A DNA stretch of 61,472 nt from Clostridia bacterium (lineage in GTDB: Bacteria; Bacillota; Clostridia; Oscillospirales; CAG-272). Shown piece after piece: positions 1-61,200 of this stretch (its first letter is position 1; each line of letters begins with the position of its first letter). The notes under the pieces were generated by a model that was not told the origin of the DNA, made no database searches, and saw nothing but the letters and a program-made list of their open reading frames with translations. A program made the position numbers and the translations under genes. The DNA lies in contig JAFOEU010000015.1 in the NCBI GenBank assembly GCA_017387685.1, forward strand, positions 1 to 61,472, read 5' to 3'.

Positions 1-240
1 CGGCGCGTGATATGCTTGCTTCGCAAGCGCGATATATCCTTCGGATACGATATACCTGCGGCACGATATATTCCGCTTTGCGGAATGTTAAGGAAAATTT
101 TCGCCGACGGCGAAAATTCACCTATCAAATCACGTTTCGCGAAGCGAAACATATCGTATTTATATATCGTATCCGCAGGATATATCGCATCGGCGAAGCC
201 GATATATCGTGCGCCGCGCACGGCGCATCTATTATAACGA
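1..240. repeat. Head-to-head pair of hairpin arrays with GATATA-type spacers
   Basis: Two arrays of short hairpins face each other. The left one (about 12-95) reads rightward and the right one (about 130-232) reads leftward. They share a central A/T-flanked hairpin at about 105-122 (AATTTTCGCC / GGCGAAAATT). Units are small stems with TTC, TTT or TGC loops, for example TTTCGC-ttc-GCGAAA and ATCC-tgc-GGAT, separated by CGATATA-like spacers. The left array ends with GTTAAGG before the central hairpin, the same order as in the copies near 3.8 kb. Short open frames here are by-products of the repeats. Function unknown; the left edge may lie outside the window. Confidence 0.75.
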
Positions 241-369: not shown

Positions 370-450
370 GTGAAAATCCGCAAGGCGGATTTTTTCCTTA
401 ACGTTCCGCGAAGCGGAACACATCACTCGCGCAAAGCGCGAACATCACTT
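370..450 (-). repeat. Hairpin array with AGTGATGT spacers at a gene 3' end
   Basis: Read on the minus strand, the array begins AAGTGATGTT, whose TGA is the stop codon of the lipoprotein gene upstream (stop at 445-447). It continues CGCGC-ttt-GCGCG, GAGTGATGTG, TTCCGC-ttc-GCGGAA, CGTTAAGG, and ends in AAAATCCGC / GCGGATTTT followed by CACGTTTTTATT. The last hairpin with its T-run could act as the terminator. The plan is the same as in the arrays at 24.35 and 25.3 kb. Confidence 0.75.
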
Positions 451-3727: not shown

Positions 3728-3838
3728 GCGCGATATGCCTTCGGCGCGATATATCCTGCGGATACGATATACCTTCGGCACGATATATTTCGCTTCGCGA
3801 AATGTTAAGGTAGAAATTTGCCGCGGCAAATTTCAATT
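3728..3838 (+). repeat. Hairpin array with GATATA-type spacers
   Basis: Reading rightward there are hairpins GCC-ttc-GGC, ATCC-tgc-GGAT and TTTCGC-ttc-GCGAAA, separated by (A)CGATATA, then GTTAAGG, then a terminal AAATTTGCC / GGCAAATTT hairpin. The array closely matches the copies at 12-120 and 5811-5891. It fills the gap between the 3' end of the 299-residue lipoprotein gene and the nested inverted repeats. Confidence 0.75.
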
Positions 3839-5810: not shown

Positions 5811-5935
5811 GCGCGCGATATGCCTTCGGCACGATATATCCTGCGGATACGATATACCTTCGGCACGATATATTTCGCTTCGCGAAATGTGAACGAAAAA
5901 ACGTGTAACGCAAATATCACTTGCAAAGTGAAATT
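5811..5935 (+). repeat. Hairpin array with GATATA-type spacers, degenerate end
   Basis: This array has the same unit order as 3728-3810 (GCC-ttc-GGC, ATCC-tgc-GGAT, ACC-ttc-GGC, TTTCGC-ttc-GCGAAA). After the last hairpin it reads GTGAACG instead of GTTAAGG and ends in a different small palindrome, CACTTGCAAAGTG. It lies between the divergent lipoprotein and rhamnosidase promoters. Its left edge joins directly to a GTAGGGGACGGCG half-element. Confidence 0.75.
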
Positions 5936-22469: not shown

Positions 22470-24347
22470 ATGAGCGAACTTACTGTAAAAACCAATGGCA
22501 TGCGCCATATCGAACATAACACCGACCTCTGCATCATCGGCGGCGGTCTTACGGGTCTTTGCGCCGCCATCGCCGCGGCTCGCGAGGGAACGAAGGTAGT
22601 CCTCATTCAGGACAGACCCGTGCTTGGCGGTAACGCATCGAGCGAGATCAGAATGTGGGTGCGCGGTGCGCACGGTCTTGAAAACCGCGAGACCGGTATC
22701 ATTTCCGAGATCGAGGAAGAAAACATCTACCTCAACCCCACCCTCATCCCCTCCACTTTCGACAACGTACTTTGGTCGAAGGTAAAGGCAGAAAAGAATA
22801 TCACTCTCCTGCTCAACACCACCTGCTGTGACGCGGACAAGACCGAAGCGGACGGCGTTTCGCATCTCACCTCGGTCACCGCTTGGCAGATGACCACCTA
22901 CACCTGGCACACCGTCCGTGCAAAGTATTTCGCGGACTGCTCGGGCGACTCGATCCTTGCTCCTATTTCGGGTGCAAAGTGGCGTGTCGGCCGCGAGGCG
23001 GCTTCCGAATACGGCGAGGCAATGGGCAAGGAGGTTGCGGACAAGAAGACGATGGGTATGTCCTGCCTCATTCAGGCACGCGAGACCGACGCTCCCGTTC
23101 CCTTCACCGCTCCCGATTGGGCATATAAGTTTGAGACCGACAACGACTTCAACCTCATCAAGGATGACAACGGCGCGATCATTGATGCAAGCACCGGCGT
23201 TTCGGGCGTAAAGGTTCAGGAGGTCAAGTACCTCGCGCGTCCCCACAAGCTCGGAACAAACGAGACCAACTTCTGGTGGCTCGAGCTCGGCGGCGAATAC
23301 GACAGCATCCACGATGCCGAGGAAATGCGCGACGAGCTTCTCAAGATCGCATACGGCATCTGGGACCACGTTAAGAACTACGGCGACCACAACGCGGAAA
23401 ACTGGACTCTCGAGTGGGTCGGATGCATCCCCGGCAAGAGAGAGAGCCGCCGCTACATCGGCGCACACGTTCTCACCGAGGGTGACGTTGAGGCGGGCGG
23501 ACATTTCGAGGATACCGTCGCATTCGGCGGATGGCCGATGGACGACCACAACCCCGCGGGCTTCCGTTCTTATCTCTCGGGCGCACCCGCATCCAAGCTC
23601 TATCCCGCTCCCTCGCCCTACGGCATTCCCTACCGCTGCTTCTACGGTCACGATGTCGATAACCTCTTCTTCGCGGGCAGAAACCTCTCTGCAACCCACG
23701 CGGCAATGTCCTCGACGAGAGTTATGGCGACCTGCGCCCTCATCGGTCAAGCTATGGGTACTGCCGCTTCGATCTGCGTAAACGAGAACGTCACTCCCCA
23801 CGGCGTATACGAAACCAAGATCAAGACCCTTCAGAACAAGCTCCGCGACGCGGGATGCTACATCCCCGGCACAGTCCGTGAGATTCCCGAGCTCACCAAG
23901 AGCGCGAAGATCAATCTCCCCGAATCAGAGCTTGCACTCCTCCAAAATGGTATCGAGCGTCCCGACGAGAATATGACCGTCAACTACGCTACCCTCAATA
24001 TTGGCGACTCTCTTGAATTCGACTTCGGCGAAGAAAAGGAACTGAGCGAGCTCCGTCTCGTCTTCGACCCCGACTTCTCCCGTCAGTCGATCACGCCCAA
24101 CAAGAAAATGCGCGTATTCGCGCAGAAGCTTATGACGGGCAAGGACTTTGTTCCCGTAAAGGTAGCAAACACCCTCGTCAAGTCCTTCCGCGTTCTTGCC
24201 GACGGCAAGGAGATCTTCGCCGACACCAACAACCGCAATTCGCTCCGCAAGATCGCACTCGGCATCAAGGCACAGAAGCTTACCGTTGTCTTTGACGAAA
24301 CAAGAGGAATCGATAAGGTTCATCTCTTCTCGGCGGACGTGAGATAA
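22470..24347 (+). CDS. FAD-dependent oxidoreductase (PF12831-like) with a sugar-binding-like C-terminus
   Basis: 625 residues. The N-terminal Rossmann fold 'DLCIIGGGLTGLCAAIAAA' binds FAD. 'RPVLGGNASSEIRMWVRGAH' and 'FFAGRNLSATHAAMSSTRVM' are typical of the FAD_oxidored family found in carbohydrate-utilisation loci of gut bacteria. The last 130 residues look like a beta-sandwich (discoidin/galactose-binding type). No signal peptide. Last gene of the long run. Its stop TAA lies in the first unit of a hairpin array. Substrate unknown, perhaps a sugar or polyol derivative. Confidence 0.85.
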   Translation: MSELTVKTNGMRHIEHNTDLCIIGGGLTGLCAAIAAAREGTKVVLIQDRPVLGGNASSEIRMWVRGAHGLENRETGIISEIEEENIYLNPTLIPSTFDNVLWSKVKAEKNITLLLNTTCCDADKTEADGVSHLTSVTAWQMTTYTWHTVRAKYFADCSGDSILAPISGAKWRVGREAASEYGEAMGKEVADKKTMGMSCLIQARETDAPVPFTAPDWAYKFETDNDFNLIKDDNGAIIDASTGVSGVKVQEVKYLARPHKLGTNETNFWWLELGGEYDSIHDAEEMRDELLKIAYGIWDHVKNYGDHNAENWTLEWVGCIPGKRESRRYIGAHVLTEGDVEAGGHFEDTVAFGGWPMDDHNPAGFRSYLSGAPASKLYPAPSPYGIPYRCFYGHDVDNLFFAGRNLSATHAAMSSTRVMATCALIGQAMGTAASICVNENVTPHGVYETKIKTLQNKLRDAGCYIPGTVREIPELTKSAKINLPESELALLQNGIERPDENMTVNYATLNIGDSLEFDFGEEKELSELRLVFDPDFSRQSITPNKKMRVFAQKLMTGKDFVPVKVANTLVKSFRVLADGKEIFADTNNRNSLRKIALGIKAQKLTVVFDETRGIDKVHLFSADVR

Positions 24348-24558
24348 TCGGCTTCGCCGAGTGATAATCACGCTTCGCGTGAGTGATAATCTGCCTTCGG
24401 CAGAGTGATAATGTATTTGCCTTTGGCAAATGTCGACTCTGACTTCTCGGCTTACGCCTCCATTTTCCTTCGGAAAACCGTCAGAGCCGCGTGCCTTTGG
24501 CGGAGTGATAATTTGCCTTCGGCAAAATGAAGGTAGATTTTCGCTGAAGCGAAAATCT
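24339..24558 (+). repeat. Hairpin array with AGTGATAAT spacers at a gene 3' end (array A)
   Basis: The array starts at GTGAGATAAT, whose TAA is the stop codon of the FAD oxidoreductase gene. Hairpins CGGC-ttc-GCCG (24349-24359), CACGC-ttc-GCGTG (24369-24381) and CTGCC-ttc-GGCAG (24391-24403) are separated by exact AGTGATAAT (24360-24368, 24382-24390, 24404-24412). Then come ATTTGCC-ttt-GGCAAAT, a longer CTCTGAC/GTCAGAG stem enclosing TTTTCC-ttc-GGAAAA, another AGTGATAAT (24504-24512), TTTGCC-ttc-GGCAAA, and TGAAGG. It closes with AGATTTTCGC / GCGAAAATCT (24535-24558). Stems differ; loops and spacers do not. Confidence 0.85.
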
Positions 24559-24572
24559 TAATTATAGCAAAA

Positions 24573-24608
24573 AAACGCCTCGTCCTGTCGGACGAGGCGT
24601 TTCAATTT
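24573..24608 (+). terminator. Terminator of the murD-to-FAD-oxidoreductase run
   Basis: Stem AAACGCCTCGTCC (24573-24585) pairs with GGACGAGGCGTTT (24590-24602), followed by CAATTTT. It lies between two convergent genes and reaches the stop codon of the minus-strand membrane protein gene, so it may serve both. Confidence 0.85.
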
Positions 24609-25138
24609 TACAGTTTTCCTTTTGCTTTAAGTACGTGTACGCGGTGGTGGCTATAGAGGATGGTTATAACTGAGCCTACAGTGAGGATCGTCCATCCGAC
24701 AAGCGCGATCAGCACGGGGAAATCCGATATCGAAAAGATCGGAAACAGAGATACAAAAACGACTGAAAGAGATCTTAAGGCTTTGATACGTGCGATCAGT
24801 TCCATCATAACGGCAAGAACGGCGTAAATTATCGCAAGTCTCTTTCCGTCGCCCGTGACGATCTCCTTGAAATCTTCCTTGAGGTCATATTTTCTGTCAC
24901 CCATATTAAGCGAATAATCATCCATACTCCTCCTTGCGTGCATTATATAAAACGAGACAAAATAGAAGAAGTAGACAGTGATGACCAGCGCCAGTGTAAT
25001 AATCCTCCTATCCTGCTCATTCTCAAATATCGCGCGGATAAGATTATTCGAGAGAAGAAAGAACACAAAAGTGGCAATCGCGGTCTTTAACAGGTCGATA
25101 ATCAATTTAAGATATGGGCTTTTTCCTTGTTTACTCAT
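24608..25138 (-). CDS. Small integral membrane protein, unknown
   Basis: 176 residues. About four hydrophobic segments are visible, two near the N-terminus (around residues 15-30 and 45-65) and two near the C-terminus (around 105-165). Between them is a charged stretch ('RRSMDDYSLNMGDRKYDLKEDF'). It does not match a family I recognise. It has its own consensus promoter and stands alone between two hairpin arrays of opposite orientation. Confidence 0.75.
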   Translation of the reverse strand: MSKQGKSPYLKLIIDLLKTAIATFVFFLLSNNLIRAIFENEQDRRIITLALVITVYFFYFVSFYIMHARRSMDDYSLNMGDRKYDLKEDFKEIVTGDGKRLAIIYAVLAVMMELIARIKALRSLSVVFVSLFPIFSISDFPVLIALVGWTILTVGSVITILYSHHRVHVLKAKGKL

Positions 25139-25171
25139 AACAGTATTCCTTTCTTGCGTTCGTGTGATTGT

Positions 25172-25200
25172 ATTATATCATATCATCCCCGCTTTGTCAA
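25172..25200 (-). promoter_or_regulatory. Promoter of the 176-residue membrane protein gene
   Basis: TTGACA (25200-25195), 17 bases, TATAAT (25177-25172) on the minus strand. A perfect sigma-A consensus. Confidence 0.8.
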
Positions 25201-25263
25201 TAGTTCTGAACACAATTCAGCGAAATATACAAAACAATATACCCGGTTTTGGTAATAATAACT

Positions 25264-25297
25264 ATAAAAAGCCTCATCTGTTCAGACGAGGCTTTTC
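25264..25297 (-). terminator. Terminator of the glycogen operon
   Basis: On the minus strand, AAAAGCCTCGTCTG pairs with CAGATGAGGCTTTT (one mismatch), then TATAG. It resembles the terminator at 24573-24608 in its GCCTCGTC core, in opposite orientation. Confidence 0.75.
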
Positions 25298-25307
25298 TAT
25301 ATAATTT

Positions 25308-25428
25308 AGATTTTCGCCAAGGCGAAAATCTTCCTTCATTTTGCCGAAGGCAAATTATCACTCCGCCAAAGGCGGATTATCACTCTGCCGAAGGCAGATT
25401 ATCACTCGGCGCAGCCGACGAATCACTT
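25308..25428 (-). repeat. Hairpin array with AGTGATAAT spacers at a gene 3' end (array B)
   Basis: On the minus strand it begins GAAGTGATTCG, whose TGA (25425-25423) ends the 115-residue gene. Hairpins CGGC-tgc-GCCG, CTGCC-ttc-GGCAG, CCGCC-ttt-GGCGG and TTTGCC-ttc-GGCAAA are separated by exact AGTGATAAT copies (25406-25398, 25384-25376, 25362-25354). TGAAGG follows, and AGATTTTCGCC / GGCGAAAATCT (25308-25331) closes the array. Order and sequence match array A, with some units missing. Confidence 0.85.
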
Positions 25429-25770
25429 CCTATAATATACGTAATACGCAATTATCGTTCTCTCTTCCCCTCCGTGTTCAAGATCAGGACCAATTAAAAC
25501 TACGCCGTCCTTCGACAACAGCTCGCTTGCGCGGAGTTCGTCGATCTTGCAGCGGAAAAGGATGTCGGCGGAGGCGAAAACGAGAAATTCGTCCCCGCGG
25601 ATGGCAAGGCTGCCCTTTCGTCCGATGACCTCGTCGACGTTGTTGATTCGTTCGGTGACGTATTTGATATACTGACCCGCAATGCGCTCTGCCATCTCGC
25701 GGCGAAAACGCACGCTGTCGGGGTTCTTCGGCTTTGTCCAATGTCCTACGACCTTACTCCAAAATCCCAT
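25423..25770 (-). CDS. Small unknown protein at the end of the glycogen operon
   Basis: 115 residues from the ATG at 25770, with AAAGGAG 9 bases upstream; a TTG two codons earlier is too close to that site. It starts inside the end of the GH13 gene (17-base overlap), so translation is probably coupled. It is soluble, with a basic N-terminal half ('WTKPKNPDSVRFRREMAERIAG') and a beta-rich C-terminal half ('DEFLVFASADILFRCKIDEL', 'RTIIAYYVYYRK'). I do not recognise the family. Position suggests a link to glycogen metabolism, but that is inference. Confidence 0.7.
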   Translation of the reverse strand: MGFWSKVVGHWTKPKNPDSVRFRREMAERIAGQYIKYVTERINNVDEVIGRKGSLAIRGDEFLVFASADILFRCKIDELRASELLSKDGVVLIGPDLEHGGEERTIIAYYVYYRK

Positions 25771-27730
25771 TTTCAACTTCTCCTTTCATCTTTACGATGA
25801 TAAACTCGCCCTTACGGATCGTGGGATGACCGACCACTCGCTTGCCCGTATAGAGGTTCACTCCGCCCGCGGCGTGGACTTTTATGGGCTCGTCCGCCAT
25901 ATTGACGGCAACGATGACGTATCCCTTTTCTTCTTTTTTGTATCTTATAAACTCAAAATATCCGCCCGTCGAGCGTGTGATCTTAAACTCACCGCCCGAG
26001 AATACGGATTCCGCTCGGCGCAATGCTCCGAGCTTTTTATAATGCTCGTTTATTTCCGCGTCAATATTGTGCCACGGGAAAGGATAACGGCAGAAGGGAT
26101 CGCTCATGCCCTCCATACCCGCCTCGTCGCCGTAATAAACGCACGGGAATCCGAAGAGGGTGAACTGAAGCGCGGATATCATCTTTAAGAGCTTCACGCC
26201 CCTCGCGCGTTCCTCGTCGGTCAGGCGAAGCTTCTCCTGAACGGCATTGTATGCAAAAGCATTCTCGCGAACCTTCTGCGGATTTCCGAGGATGGTCAAA
26301 ACGCGCTCGGTATCGTGCGTGCCGATAAGGTTCATAAGGCTATCCGAAACGCATCGCGGATAGGACGAATAAAGATCTGTCAGCGCGGATGCAAGTGCAT
26401 TCGCTTCACCGTTTTCGGCAAAATCAAGAAGTGCCTTACGCGTGGGATAATTCATAACGCTGTCAAGCTGTGCTCCGCGGAAATAGGAGCGGCGCTTACC
26501 GTAAGCGATCTTGTCAGCCGCATTCTCCCAGACCTCGCCGATCAGTACGACCTCGCGATTGACCGAATGAATGCGCCGGCGGAGCTCTTCAAGAAATCTG
26601 TCGGGGAGCTCGTCGGCAACGTCGAGGCGCAAGCCGTCGATGCCCTCGCGCATATAATGCTCGGCAACGCCGCCCTCGCCCGTGAAGAACTCGCGGCATT
26701 CGTCCTTGTGGGTGTTAAGTCTCGGCAGGATTCTGATGCCCCACCAAGCCGTATAATCGGGCGCGCCCTCCTTTTCGGGGGCGTGGAAATCGTACCACGA
26801 ATGATAGGGGGATGCGGGATCTCTCGCGGGCAGACCGTATCTGCCGTATTCGTCAAAATATCTCGAGTCGCTTCCCGTGTGGTTGAAAACGCCGTCGAGA
26901 ATGATCTTCATTCCCCTCGCGTGCGCGGCTTCGATAAGAGCCTTGAAAGCCGCCTCACCGCCAAACTCATCCGCTATCTTCATATAATCCGAGGTATCGT
27001 ATTTATGGTTGCTGACGGCATCGAAAATCGGCGATAGATAGAGGATGCTCACACCGAGGGATTCAAGATAATCGAGCTTTTCGATGATTCCCCAAAGATT
27101 TCCGCCGAAGAAATGGTTGTTTTTAACCTCCGCGCCGCGATATTCGGCATACTGCGGCACTCCGTTTTCCCAATCGGGGTCGAGGATCGAATCGGCGCGG
27201 TAGCCGGTCTTTCCCTCTCCTCTCGCAAATCTATCGAGGAAAATGTGGTACATTATCCCCCCGCCGAGCCATTCGGGCACGCAGTATTCGGGGCGGTAAA
27301 CGGTAAGGCGGAATTCGTTCCAGTTCTCTTTAACAAGAGAGAAATTGACGTTATCCGACGCGCTTGCGGCAAGCTCTTCACCCCCGCGTCGAAAAATATA
27401 TGTATAGTAAAAAAGCCCCGACTCCGACTCACCGCAAAGCGCGGCTGTGTCGAGGCTCAGCTTATATTCATCGTTAATGTAATCGGTCGAGATAAACTCA
27501 AACCCGAATCTTTGCACCGAGGAGTCTTTTCCTTCGTCGCAGGGTGCAAGAGTATCTCTGCGAATGCAGATCTCGGCAGAGGTAACACCGAGCCTTCTCG
27601 GAATTCTTGCCGTAATTTCAATAACGCTTCCCCACTCGAACGCGCCGAGCGCGGAAACATCCTCGCCCCCGCATCTTTTTTCGATGCGGGGTGCGGGGAT
27701 GTATTCGGTTTGCATAAATCTTGCAAGCAT
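25754..27730 (-). CDS. GH13 alpha-glucan hydrolase, neopullulanase/cyclomaltodextrinase-like
   Basis: 658 residues. An N-terminal beta domain precedes the catalytic barrel. GH13 conserved regions are visible: 'DGVFNH' (about residue 279), 'GLRLDVADELP' (nucleophile Asp, about 370), 'LIGEVWE' (acid/base Glu, about 397) and 'IGTHDTERVL'. 'MYHIFLDRFARG' is typical of the neopullulanase/cyclomaltodextrinase group. No signal peptide, so it acts on intracellular glycogen-derived oligosaccharides or imported maltodextrins. It starts right after glgP. Confidence 0.9.
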   Translation of the reverse strand: MLARFMQTEYIPAPRIEKRCGGEDVSALGAFEWGSVIEITARIPRRLGVTSAEICIRRDTLAPCDEGKDSSVQRFGFEFISTDYINDEYKLSLDTAALCGESESGLFYYTYIFRRGGEELAASASDNVNFSLVKENWNEFRLTVYRPEYCVPEWLGGGIMYHIFLDRFARGEGKTGYRADSILDPDWENGVPQYAEYRGAEVKNNHFFGGNLWGIIEKLDYLESLGVSILYLSPIFDAVSNHKYDTSDYMKIADEFGGEAAFKALIEAAHARGMKIILDGVFNHTGSDSRYFDEYGRYGLPARDPASPYHSWYDFHAPEKEGAPDYTAWWGIRILPRLNTHKDECREFFTGEGGVAEHYMREGIDGLRLDVADELPDRFLEELRRRIHSVNREVVLIGEVWENAADKIAYGKRRSYFRGAQLDSVMNYPTRKALLDFAENGEANALASALTDLYSSYPRCVSDSLMNLIGTHDTERVLTILGNPQKVRENAFAYNAVQEKLRLTDEERARGVKLLKMISALQFTLFGFPCVYYGDEAGMEGMSDPFCRYPFPWHNIDAEINEHYKKLGALRRAESVFSGGEFKITRSTGGYFEFIRYKKEEKGYVIVAVNMADEPIKVHAAGGVNLYTGKRVVGHPTIRKGEFIIVKMKGEVENGILE

Positions 27731-43071: not shown

Positions 43072-43153
43072 TGCACATTTTTTGAGCGATTTTTTCAACT
43101 TTTTGCACATTTTTTGAGCGAATTATCGCGCTTTGTGCACATTTTTTGAGCGA
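43072..43153. repeat. Three 18-bp direct repeats at exact 32-bp spacing
   Basis: TGCACATTTTTTGAGCGA occurs without mismatch at 43072-43089, 43104-43121 and 43136-43153. The period is 32 bp, close to three helical turns, so all copies face the same side of the helix. They lie just upstream of the promoter of the AAA/DUF4143 gene and read TCGCTCAAAAAATGTGCA on its coding strand. The three copies and their placement fit binding sites for a regulator. The unit is not palindromic. Confidence 0.85.
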
Positions 43154-43168
43154 ATCTACATTTTAACA

Positions 43169-61088: not shown

Positions 61089-61200
61089 GGGGTTTTTGTC
61101 GTTTTTTACATACGCGACAATACTTTTCACATGCTTTTTTGGTTGAAACGGGAAAAACGAAAAAAACTTCAAAAAAACCAAAAAAACTTTCAAAAAGGTG

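Follow-up and report, generated by a model that had tools for sequence, protein, structure and literature searches.

Composite hairpin and heptamer repeats at gene borders in related Clostridia draft genomes, and the turnover of their tracts

Repetitive extragenic palindromes (REP) and bacterial interspersed mosaic elements (BIME) are dispersed intergenic palindromes linked to RAYT transposases, and REP carry a GTAG/GGAG tetranucleotide at their foot. In cyanobacteria, short tandemly repeated repetitive (STRR) heptanucleotides form several tandem heptamer families in one genome. The intergenic heptamers GGGAATC / GGGGAYT of Xanthomonas and Nostoc have been described with a defined polarity, a preference for four units, stop codon overlap and convergent pairs (Rehm et al., 2015; PMC4692102), and the same paper mentions three tandem heptanucleotides in Calothrix. 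Furthermore, TAACTGA direct repeats occur in marine Beggiatoaceae, cyanobacteria and Bacteroidetes (MacGregor, 2015; PMC4679880), stem-loop families have been surveyed (PMC2267715), and REP within 15 nt of a stop codon are given as 446 of 4,072 in E. coli (PMC12306157). These sources were available in part, and statements about them hold for those parts. Here we describe a composite repeat at gene borders in a 61,472-nt stretch of Clostridia bacterium DNA (GCA_017387685.1, contig JAFOEU010000015.1; hereafter the window), which combines a tract of hairpins or heptamers with a fixed 3' end. The main comparison is of four related draft genomes: G000, the 2.58-Mb draft that holds the window, and G003, G004 and G007. 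No description of this composite element was found in the published literature covered, which mostly excluded subscription papers.

The nearest known kind are the heptameric repeats of Xanthomonas and Nostoc (PMC4692102), which share with our element the position rule, including its polarity, and the unit number of about four tandem 7-nt units. The element differs from them in having no G-tracts, in hairpins that may alternate, in an RTDAAGG and palindrome end and in a change of repeat family between relatives; hairpin units and a closing palindrome are not among the features found described in the available part of that paper. Between co-directional genes the two orientations are given there as 30% versus 35% in one species and 35% each in the other, whereas the sense orientation is favoured here. 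The commonest heptamers among those listed here (TTGCTAG, TTACTAG, GTGCAGA, ATGCAAA and GTGTAAA) contain no GGG and so lack the G-tracts of a quadruplex; because heptamers without G-tracts follow much the same rule and unit number, quadruplexes cannot explain the position rule generally. With the TAACTGA repeats the element shares intergenic heptamer runs, forward stops in all frames and some overlap with the upstream stop. However, those repeats lie mostly just upstream of a start codon and have one fixed heptamer, while 107 of 139 elements with two neighbours come after a same-strand stop here; hairpin arrays were not found described in the available part of PMC4679880. REP and BIME resemble the element as dispersed palindromes in intergenic DNA, some near stops, and differ from it in that here G000 and G003 have no Y1 transposase match, many stems go with one spacer and heptamer-only versions exist. 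The GTAG/GGAG foot is also missing from the consensus spacers (GTGATAA, GTTAAGA and ATGGTTA). STRR sequences are similar, by description only, in having several tandem heptamer families per genome. What is new against the known heptameric gene-border repeats is the presence of hairpins, the fixed 3' module and the genome-specific replacement of tracts.

A composite element at gene borders

From 5' to 3', the element consists of a tract, a last heptamer RTDAAGG, usually a T, and a palindrome (ATTTTCGCC..GGCGAAAAT, for example). Its 3' end does not vary, whereas the 5' tract is of several kinds, built either of hairpins of about 15 nt with spacers mostly of 7 nt (period 22) or of bare heptamers (TTGCTAG and relatives, GTGCAGA, ATGCAAA, GTGTAAA and others). 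The 3' module TDAAGGTNNATTTYC was searched for alone, as an anchor, so that tracts were sampled regardless of kind. It occurs at 59, 26, 35 and 35 places in G000, G003, G004 and G007, compared with 0, 2, 0 and 0 for its reversed control, and at 0–2 places in the four other genomes of the genus tested; as a strict pattern it misses elements with variant ends, including arrays A and C of the window (listed below). Among 196 genomes of the family, a sample that excluded G003 and G007, more than seven places were found only in G000, G004 and G198. In G198, which belongs to another genus, 14 of the 15 matches are one identical 15-mer, TGAAGGTGCATTTTC, and these matches probably belong to a different, unrelated repeat.

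A total of 144 anchors were parsed (59/59 in G000, 26/26 in G003, 33/35 in G004 and 26/35 in G007). According to the script they are preceded by a hairpin array in 58 cases, a heptamer tract in 71, one hairpin in 10 and neither in 5, several of the last two kinds being arrays clipped by the script as judged by eye. Four or five units stand ahead of the anchor heptamer in 55 of the 71 heptamer tracts. The sequence-only reading, an earlier note made from the letters of the window, had held that the arrays are not random intergenic filler, and the counts agree: G000 contains 107 occurrences of AGTGATAAT and 9 of the reversed pattern, and the spacer-hairpin-spacer pattern with a 22-nt period occurs 35 times in G000 against 0 reversed, with 0 in 12 other genomes of the genus. 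The spacer unit also extends, in degenerate form, ahead of the first hairpin. This is general: across 49 of the 50 arrays with at least three hairpins (four genomes), the 7-mer just ahead of the first hairpin agrees with the spacer of its array at 4.04 of 7 positions, compared with 1.71 for upstream control 7-mers. A generic two-hairpin pattern was unspecific (18 versus 7 reversed in G000, and no more than the control in some other genomes) and was set aside. One tract pattern sought in viral contigs gave 0 matches, and the lone viral match of an early array pattern was an A/T-rich stretch without hairpins. One 159-kb contig, C48, about 6% of G000, holds 47 of the 100 AGTGATAAT places among the matches listed; contamination was considered, but its G+C content (0.486–0.534 over seven stretches) overlaps that of seven other stretches (0.489–0.518).

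The hairpins are real and their varied stems covary. When 15-mers were picked solely by flanking spacers at 22 nt, the 39 units of G000 (15 distinct 15-mers) formed 95.7% of the six possible pairs against 71.4% with the arms shuffled, and the 21 units of G003 formed 96.0% against 76.1%. G004 and G007, with 9 and 8 units, point the same way, although the shuffle maximum reaches the observed value in G007. Predicted folds of array B give identical hairpins in DNA and RNA, and for array C the RNA minimum differs. Triloops read TNC (GNA on the opposite strand) in 128 of 170 parsed and are closed by C-G in 168 of 170. GNA loops form unusually stable DNA minihairpins, but the case for a role of such loops weakens on inspection: the parser was biased towards loops of three bases (170 of 198), and among the spacer-picked units a TNC loop was found in 35 of 39 in G000 and only 8 of 21 in G003.

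With one anchor inside a gene excluded, 143 intergenic elements remained. Between co-directional genes 63 are in the same sense and 25 opposite, 44 lie between convergent and 7 between divergent genes, and 4 have one called neighbour; orthologous elements were counted once per genome, so these and other four-genome counts are not independent. Genes were called by our own codon-usage script and not a standard caller. The intergenic gaps of at least 60 nt in the same stretches are 286 co-directional, 91 divergent and 72 convergent, in stretches that were chosen for holding an anchor and whose other gene ends are thus not a random sample. The excess of same over opposite sense has a binomial p of 6e-5, with orthologues counted more than once, and by genome runs 21 to 10 (G000), 15 to 5, 16 to 4 and 11 to 6. 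A tract had been parsed and genes called on both sides for 126 elements; in 103 of these the 5' end overlaps a gene edge or lies no more than 49 nt from it, and in 7 the 3' end does so. The rule is polar: the 5' end sits at the gene border and the palindrome is directed away from it.

At the level of the stop codon, 29 of the 60 heptamer elements that follow a same-strand gene have the stop overlapped by or inside the tract. The remaining gaps are 0–7 nt in 16, 8–19 nt in 5, 20–60 nt in 9 and larger in 1, and the nine at 20–60 nt lie, as seen by eye, behind a terminator-like hairpin. The 5' end falls within 49 nt of the start side of an opposite-sense gene in 13 of 28 elements, often leaving the ribosome-binding region free. 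The expectation that arrays are enriched at stop codons in a fixed orientation therefore holds in its first half: they are frequent at stops and biased 63 to 25, but the orientation is not fixed, given the 25 opposite elements between co-directional genes, the 7 between divergent genes and the many that face the start side of a gene. A terminator-like hairpin, CTCGGATATT..AATATCCGAG, also lies shortly downstream of several elements (L050, L205, L231, L241 and L280).

Parts of this arrangement recur elsewhere. The pattern TAGTTRYTAGTTRYTAGTTRYTAG was counted, overlaps included, across 196 genomes of the family: G000 gave 81 matches and G067, which belongs to another genus, gave 52, two further genomes gave one each, and the remaining 192 gave none. 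Since the runs of G067 lack RTDAAGG (none in the eight stretches L291–L298, with nine runs, ends in it), it is the heptamer part alone that recurs there; in L297 the run is followed by a similar palindrome and in L293 it begins at a stop. Other repeats were also seen. Another dispersed multi-hairpin repeat, on both strands, has A/T-rich AACTTTTTxAAAAAGTT stems beside CTTAAGGC..CCTTAAG or TCGAGAC..GTCTCGA stems (L035, L036, L037, L041, L045, L046, L048, L049, L050, L054, L056 and L062). In L241 and L054 a heptamer tract of GTGGACA or GCGGACA units ends in AGAAAGTTGCG and not in AAGGT plus palindrome.

Turnover of tracts between genomes

The dominant spacer differs between genomes, and the repeat family changes while the flanks stay; this turnover is the new point of the comparison. 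The consensus spacer is GTGATAA in G000, GTTAAGA in G003 and G004 and ATGGTTA in G007, with a second family, ATGATRR, in G004, and spacers match the consensus of their own genome at a mean of 6.64, 6.17, 5.28 and 6.23 of 7 positions in the four genomes. For 51 hairpin arrays, identity is 0.79 within a genome (n = 316), 0.69 at orthologous loci (n = 9) and 0.72 for other comparisons (n = 950), and the within-minus-between difference was reached by 0 of 2000 label shuffles. A genome effect is also found in 65 heptamer tracts, at 0.72 within a genome (n = 711) versus 0.65 (0 of 2000 shuffles).

Replacement can be followed at single sites. The tract family differs in 7 of the 9 pairs with clean two-sided orthology, an orthologous downstream flank being defined as one above the 99th percentile of random pairs. 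At the site of array B, G000 has GTGATAA hairpins and G003 has ATGCAAA heptamers, with an identity of 0.83 in the palindrome region and 0.95 in the downstream flank; palindrome identity is weak evidence alone, as random pairs average 0.72 with a 95th percentile of 0.83. Similarly, hairpin and bare-heptamer tracts replace one another at the same gene, and several orthologous genes have no element in relatives. A tract was present at 17 of 33 distinct orthologous sites met incidentally, compared with 14 of 116 control gene ends, and the sites are therefore partly inherited. The list of candidate empty sites includes filled sites with variant anchors and was sorted by eye.

The arrays of the window and the stops of their genes

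The arrays and related features of the window are as follows.

373-448, minus strand: array A, with palindrome 373-393, GTTAAGG 396-402, hairpins 403-419 and 427-441 and a stop-bearing first unit; the stop TGA (445-447) of gene 445-1524 lies within AAGTGATGTT
24339-24558, plus strand: array B; the stop TAA (24345-24347) of gene 22470-24347 lies within GTGAGATAAT
24339-24348, plus strand: degenerate first spacer of array B, GTGAGATAAT, which holds the TAA
24348-24411, plus strand: 5' part of array B, three triloop hairpins with GTGATAA after each, period 22, the first hairpin 2 nt shorter than the other two
24412-24503 (approximate ends), plus strand: nested repeat in array B, with similar sequence in L034 and L047
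24505-24558, plus strand: 3' part of array B, with a spacer, hairpin TTTGCCTTCGGCAAA, last heptamer ATGAAGG 24527-24533 and palindrome 24535-24558
24572-24603: separate terminator-like hairpin downstream of array B
25266-25297: separate terminator-like hairpin
25308-25425, minus strand: array C, with palindrome 25308-25331, ATGAAGG 25333-25339 and four hairpins with GTGATAA spacers, the first hairpin being 25406-25418; the stop TGA (25423-25425) of gene 25423-25776 lies within GAAGTGATTCG
30-118, plus strand: related element with CGATATA spacers, GTTAAGG at 87 and a palindrome
3731-3834, plus strand: related element with CGATATA spacers, GTTAAGG at 3804 and a palindrome
5816-5888, plus strand: hairpin array with CGATATA spacers, missed by the loose anchor-plus-palindrome test

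Several proposals made for arrays A, B and C from the window's letters were borne out, namely that they begin at the stop of the upstream gene (all three stops sit in a degenerate first spacer), share the sense of that gene and close in a palindrome with A/T feet. Array B had been taken as one array, and its start and end stand, but the nested repeat of about 92 nt interrupts it. The closing hairpin is indeed an A/T-flanked palindrome; however, it differs from an intrinsic terminator in carrying its T's in the 5' arm and its A's in the 3' arm. No G+C stem followed by a T run in the gene sense was found in it, and the terminator scan lists the closing palindromes of arrays B and C each only on the strand opposite the upstream gene.

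Of the genes concerned, 445-1524 encodes a product with a bacterial Ig-like domain and 22470-24347 an FAD-dependent oxidoreductase; the product of 25423-25776 is a small protein for which a Pfam search gave no match at E 0.001. The nearest named relatives, identified through the FAD protein (91–92% identical), are metagenome-assembled genomes called Clostridia bacterium from goat and yak gut. An Rfam scan of the window at gathering score returned two tRNAs only, and the arrays match no Rfam family. The nested repeat (GTATTTGCC...GTCAGAGCCG...) sits inside hairpin arrays, and a portion of it is also found elsewhere in the related genomes. Arrays B and C contain sequences resembling a promoter (GTGATA, 18 nt, GATAAT), which follow from the GTGATAA spacer. 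Short tandem repeats of 32 and 20 nt at 43072-43155 and 61153-61196 are unrelated to the arrays.

An array can supply the stop of the upstream gene, as had been suggested. At one gene the element is absent from G000, where the end reads GAA AAT TGA, the gene's own stop; G007 reads GAA AGT TGC TAG into TTGCTAG heptamers, and in G003 the frame (GAA AGT GCA ... AGT TAA) passes through GTGCAGA heptamers and stops at the anchor's TAA. Another gene ends within GTGCAGA-type heptamers in G000 and G004 and inside the first hairpin in G003 and G007, and the array C gene ends in TGA in G000 and two relatives and in AAGTAA in G004, where the array is absent. Stop supply by the element is real but not universal: in two comparisons (G000 L205 with G007 L275, and G000 L050 with G003 L219) TAA stands in the same place with or without the element, and the tract begins just past it.

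The further idea that later units catch readthrough does not hold generally, and it is highly improbable that the tracts exist as a safety device giving stops in several frames after a gene. AGTGATAAT does contain both TGA and TAA, and of the 34 heptamer tracts tested in G000, 28 have a stop in every frame. However, the ATGGTTA spacer of a close relative is stop-free (no stop in AATGGTTAT), and in some tracts between one and three frames stay open; of 10 hairpin tracts in G007, 3 close no frame and 3 only one. Moreover, in one GTGCAGA tract (L229) the reading frame runs on as far as the anchor's TAA. These cases already contradict such a device as a general role.

Origin of the element and what it means

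We give about an even chance to the explanation that these are dispersed non-coding composite repeats at gene borders whose tracts are rewritten within genomes by copying, with stop supply as a by-product. The 5' end of the element abuts a stop codon or a terminator, or lies against the start side of a gene in the opposite orientation, and many sites are inherited in place, about half of those tested being common to species. Within a genome, tracts are homogenised into one or a few local families of repeat. Copying between the dispersed copies would account for this, by gene conversion or by template switching, and the AAGGT-palindrome that the copies share would then serve as the homology anchor. 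A tract that reaches into a gene end becomes its C-terminus and stop, which would be a result of tolerated encroachment and not a purpose, and the host may gain little or nothing.

Several observations weigh against this explanation. No enzyme for rewriting was identified and no clean insertion junction was found, the intergenic DNA after the stop being unalignable by eye in the element-free relatives inspected. Of the 41 pairs whose upstream genes are homologous, the downstream flank is clearly orthologous in just 9, and G000 taken alone shows an orientation bias of only 21 to 10. Heptamer tracts are most alike at orthologous loci (0.78, n = 10), exceeding loci of the same genome (0.72), so that their rewriting would be slower or absent. 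Copying from the 3' anchor would be expected to leave the 5'-most hairpin as the most conserved between orthologues, but over 10 pairs identity was 0.57 for the first, 0.73 for middle and 0.76 for the last hairpins; three single loci do look conserved in the 5'-most hairpin, yet as a general test this mark of one-sided copying was not borne out. Neighbouring elements are of the same class in 14 of 29 pairs in G000 (15.4 expected) and 11 of 19 in G003 plus G004 (9.5 expected), that is, no more than expected, and local spreading along the chromosome finds no support. Rewriting by a reverse transcriptase finds none either: RVT_1 had no match in G000, G003 and G007 and two in G004, which does not track the elements.

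Transposition of whole REP-like elements, or of elements like miniature inverted-repeat transposable elements, to gene ends by a transposase acting in trans, with orthologous sites hit independently, seems unlikely. It fits copies that are dispersed, have a palindromic end, lie at gene ends, draw on a common stem vocabulary and are missing from sites in relatives. However, the search for Y1_Tnp in these draft genomes (72–86% complete) gave 0 matches in G000 and 0 in G003, a single match in G004 (23.2 bits, cut-off 23) and in G007 (27.6), and, outside these four, one in G001, a genome with only 2 anchors; the presence of this transposase thus does not follow that of the elements. The excess of tracts at orthologous sites over control ends and the retention of the DNA just past the palindrome in 9 of 41 pairs both point to inherited sites, and no target duplication was seen, the empty-site junctions being unalignable in the cases inspected. 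A functional element of the 3' untranslated region (3'-UTR) or gene end, protecting mRNA 3' ends, modulating termination or binding a genome-specific protein, is a shade less probable still. The strong covariation of stems, spacers that are homogeneous per genome beside variable stems and the C-G closing of nearly all triloops speak for it, and the available part of PMC12306157 reports ribosome stalling by REP that lie no more than 15 nt from a stop; in one variant the spacers would change together because the binding protein had changed. Against it stand the interchange of hairpin and bare-heptamer tracts at one gene and the several orthologous genes without the element. The sequence-only reading had proposed a 3'-UTR element or a mobile repeat of gene ends; stop enrichment and orientation bias agree, but a purely 3'-UTR role fits poorly because some tracts start behind a terminator-like hairpin and others lie antisense upstream of starts.

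Simple replication slippage, in which the heptamer reflects a polymerase-favoured repeat length and expansion beside genes is tolerated, is very unlikely as the whole account. Heptanucleotides are described as the commonest longer simple-repeat class in most bacterial genomes and polymerase contact length has been proposed as the reason (available parts of PMC4679880 and PMC4692102), and TAGTTRY-like tracts without RTDAAGG occur in a distant genus. Slippage, however, cannot make tandem hairpins with different but paired stems or a fixed 3' module, nor swap one family for another at one site, and these switches already count against it as a full account. Finally, it is conceivable, though we doubt it, that AAGGT-plus-palindrome sites at gene borders are write sites, at which dedicated machinery writes a genome-specific word, with or without hairpins, that is swapped as lineages diverge, with the same principle behind the Xanthomonas, Nostoc and Beggiatoa heptamers. 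If that were true, quadruplex formation would not be the cause of those heptamer repeats.

Among the intergenic repeats of bacteria, tandem heptamers are common and still lack an explanation. With orthologous sites that have kept their flanks and changed their tracts, the origin and spread of such repeats can now be answered by comparing strains. Furthermore, gene ends derived from repeats mean that C-termini and stop positions differ among close relatives for reasons unrelated to the protein.

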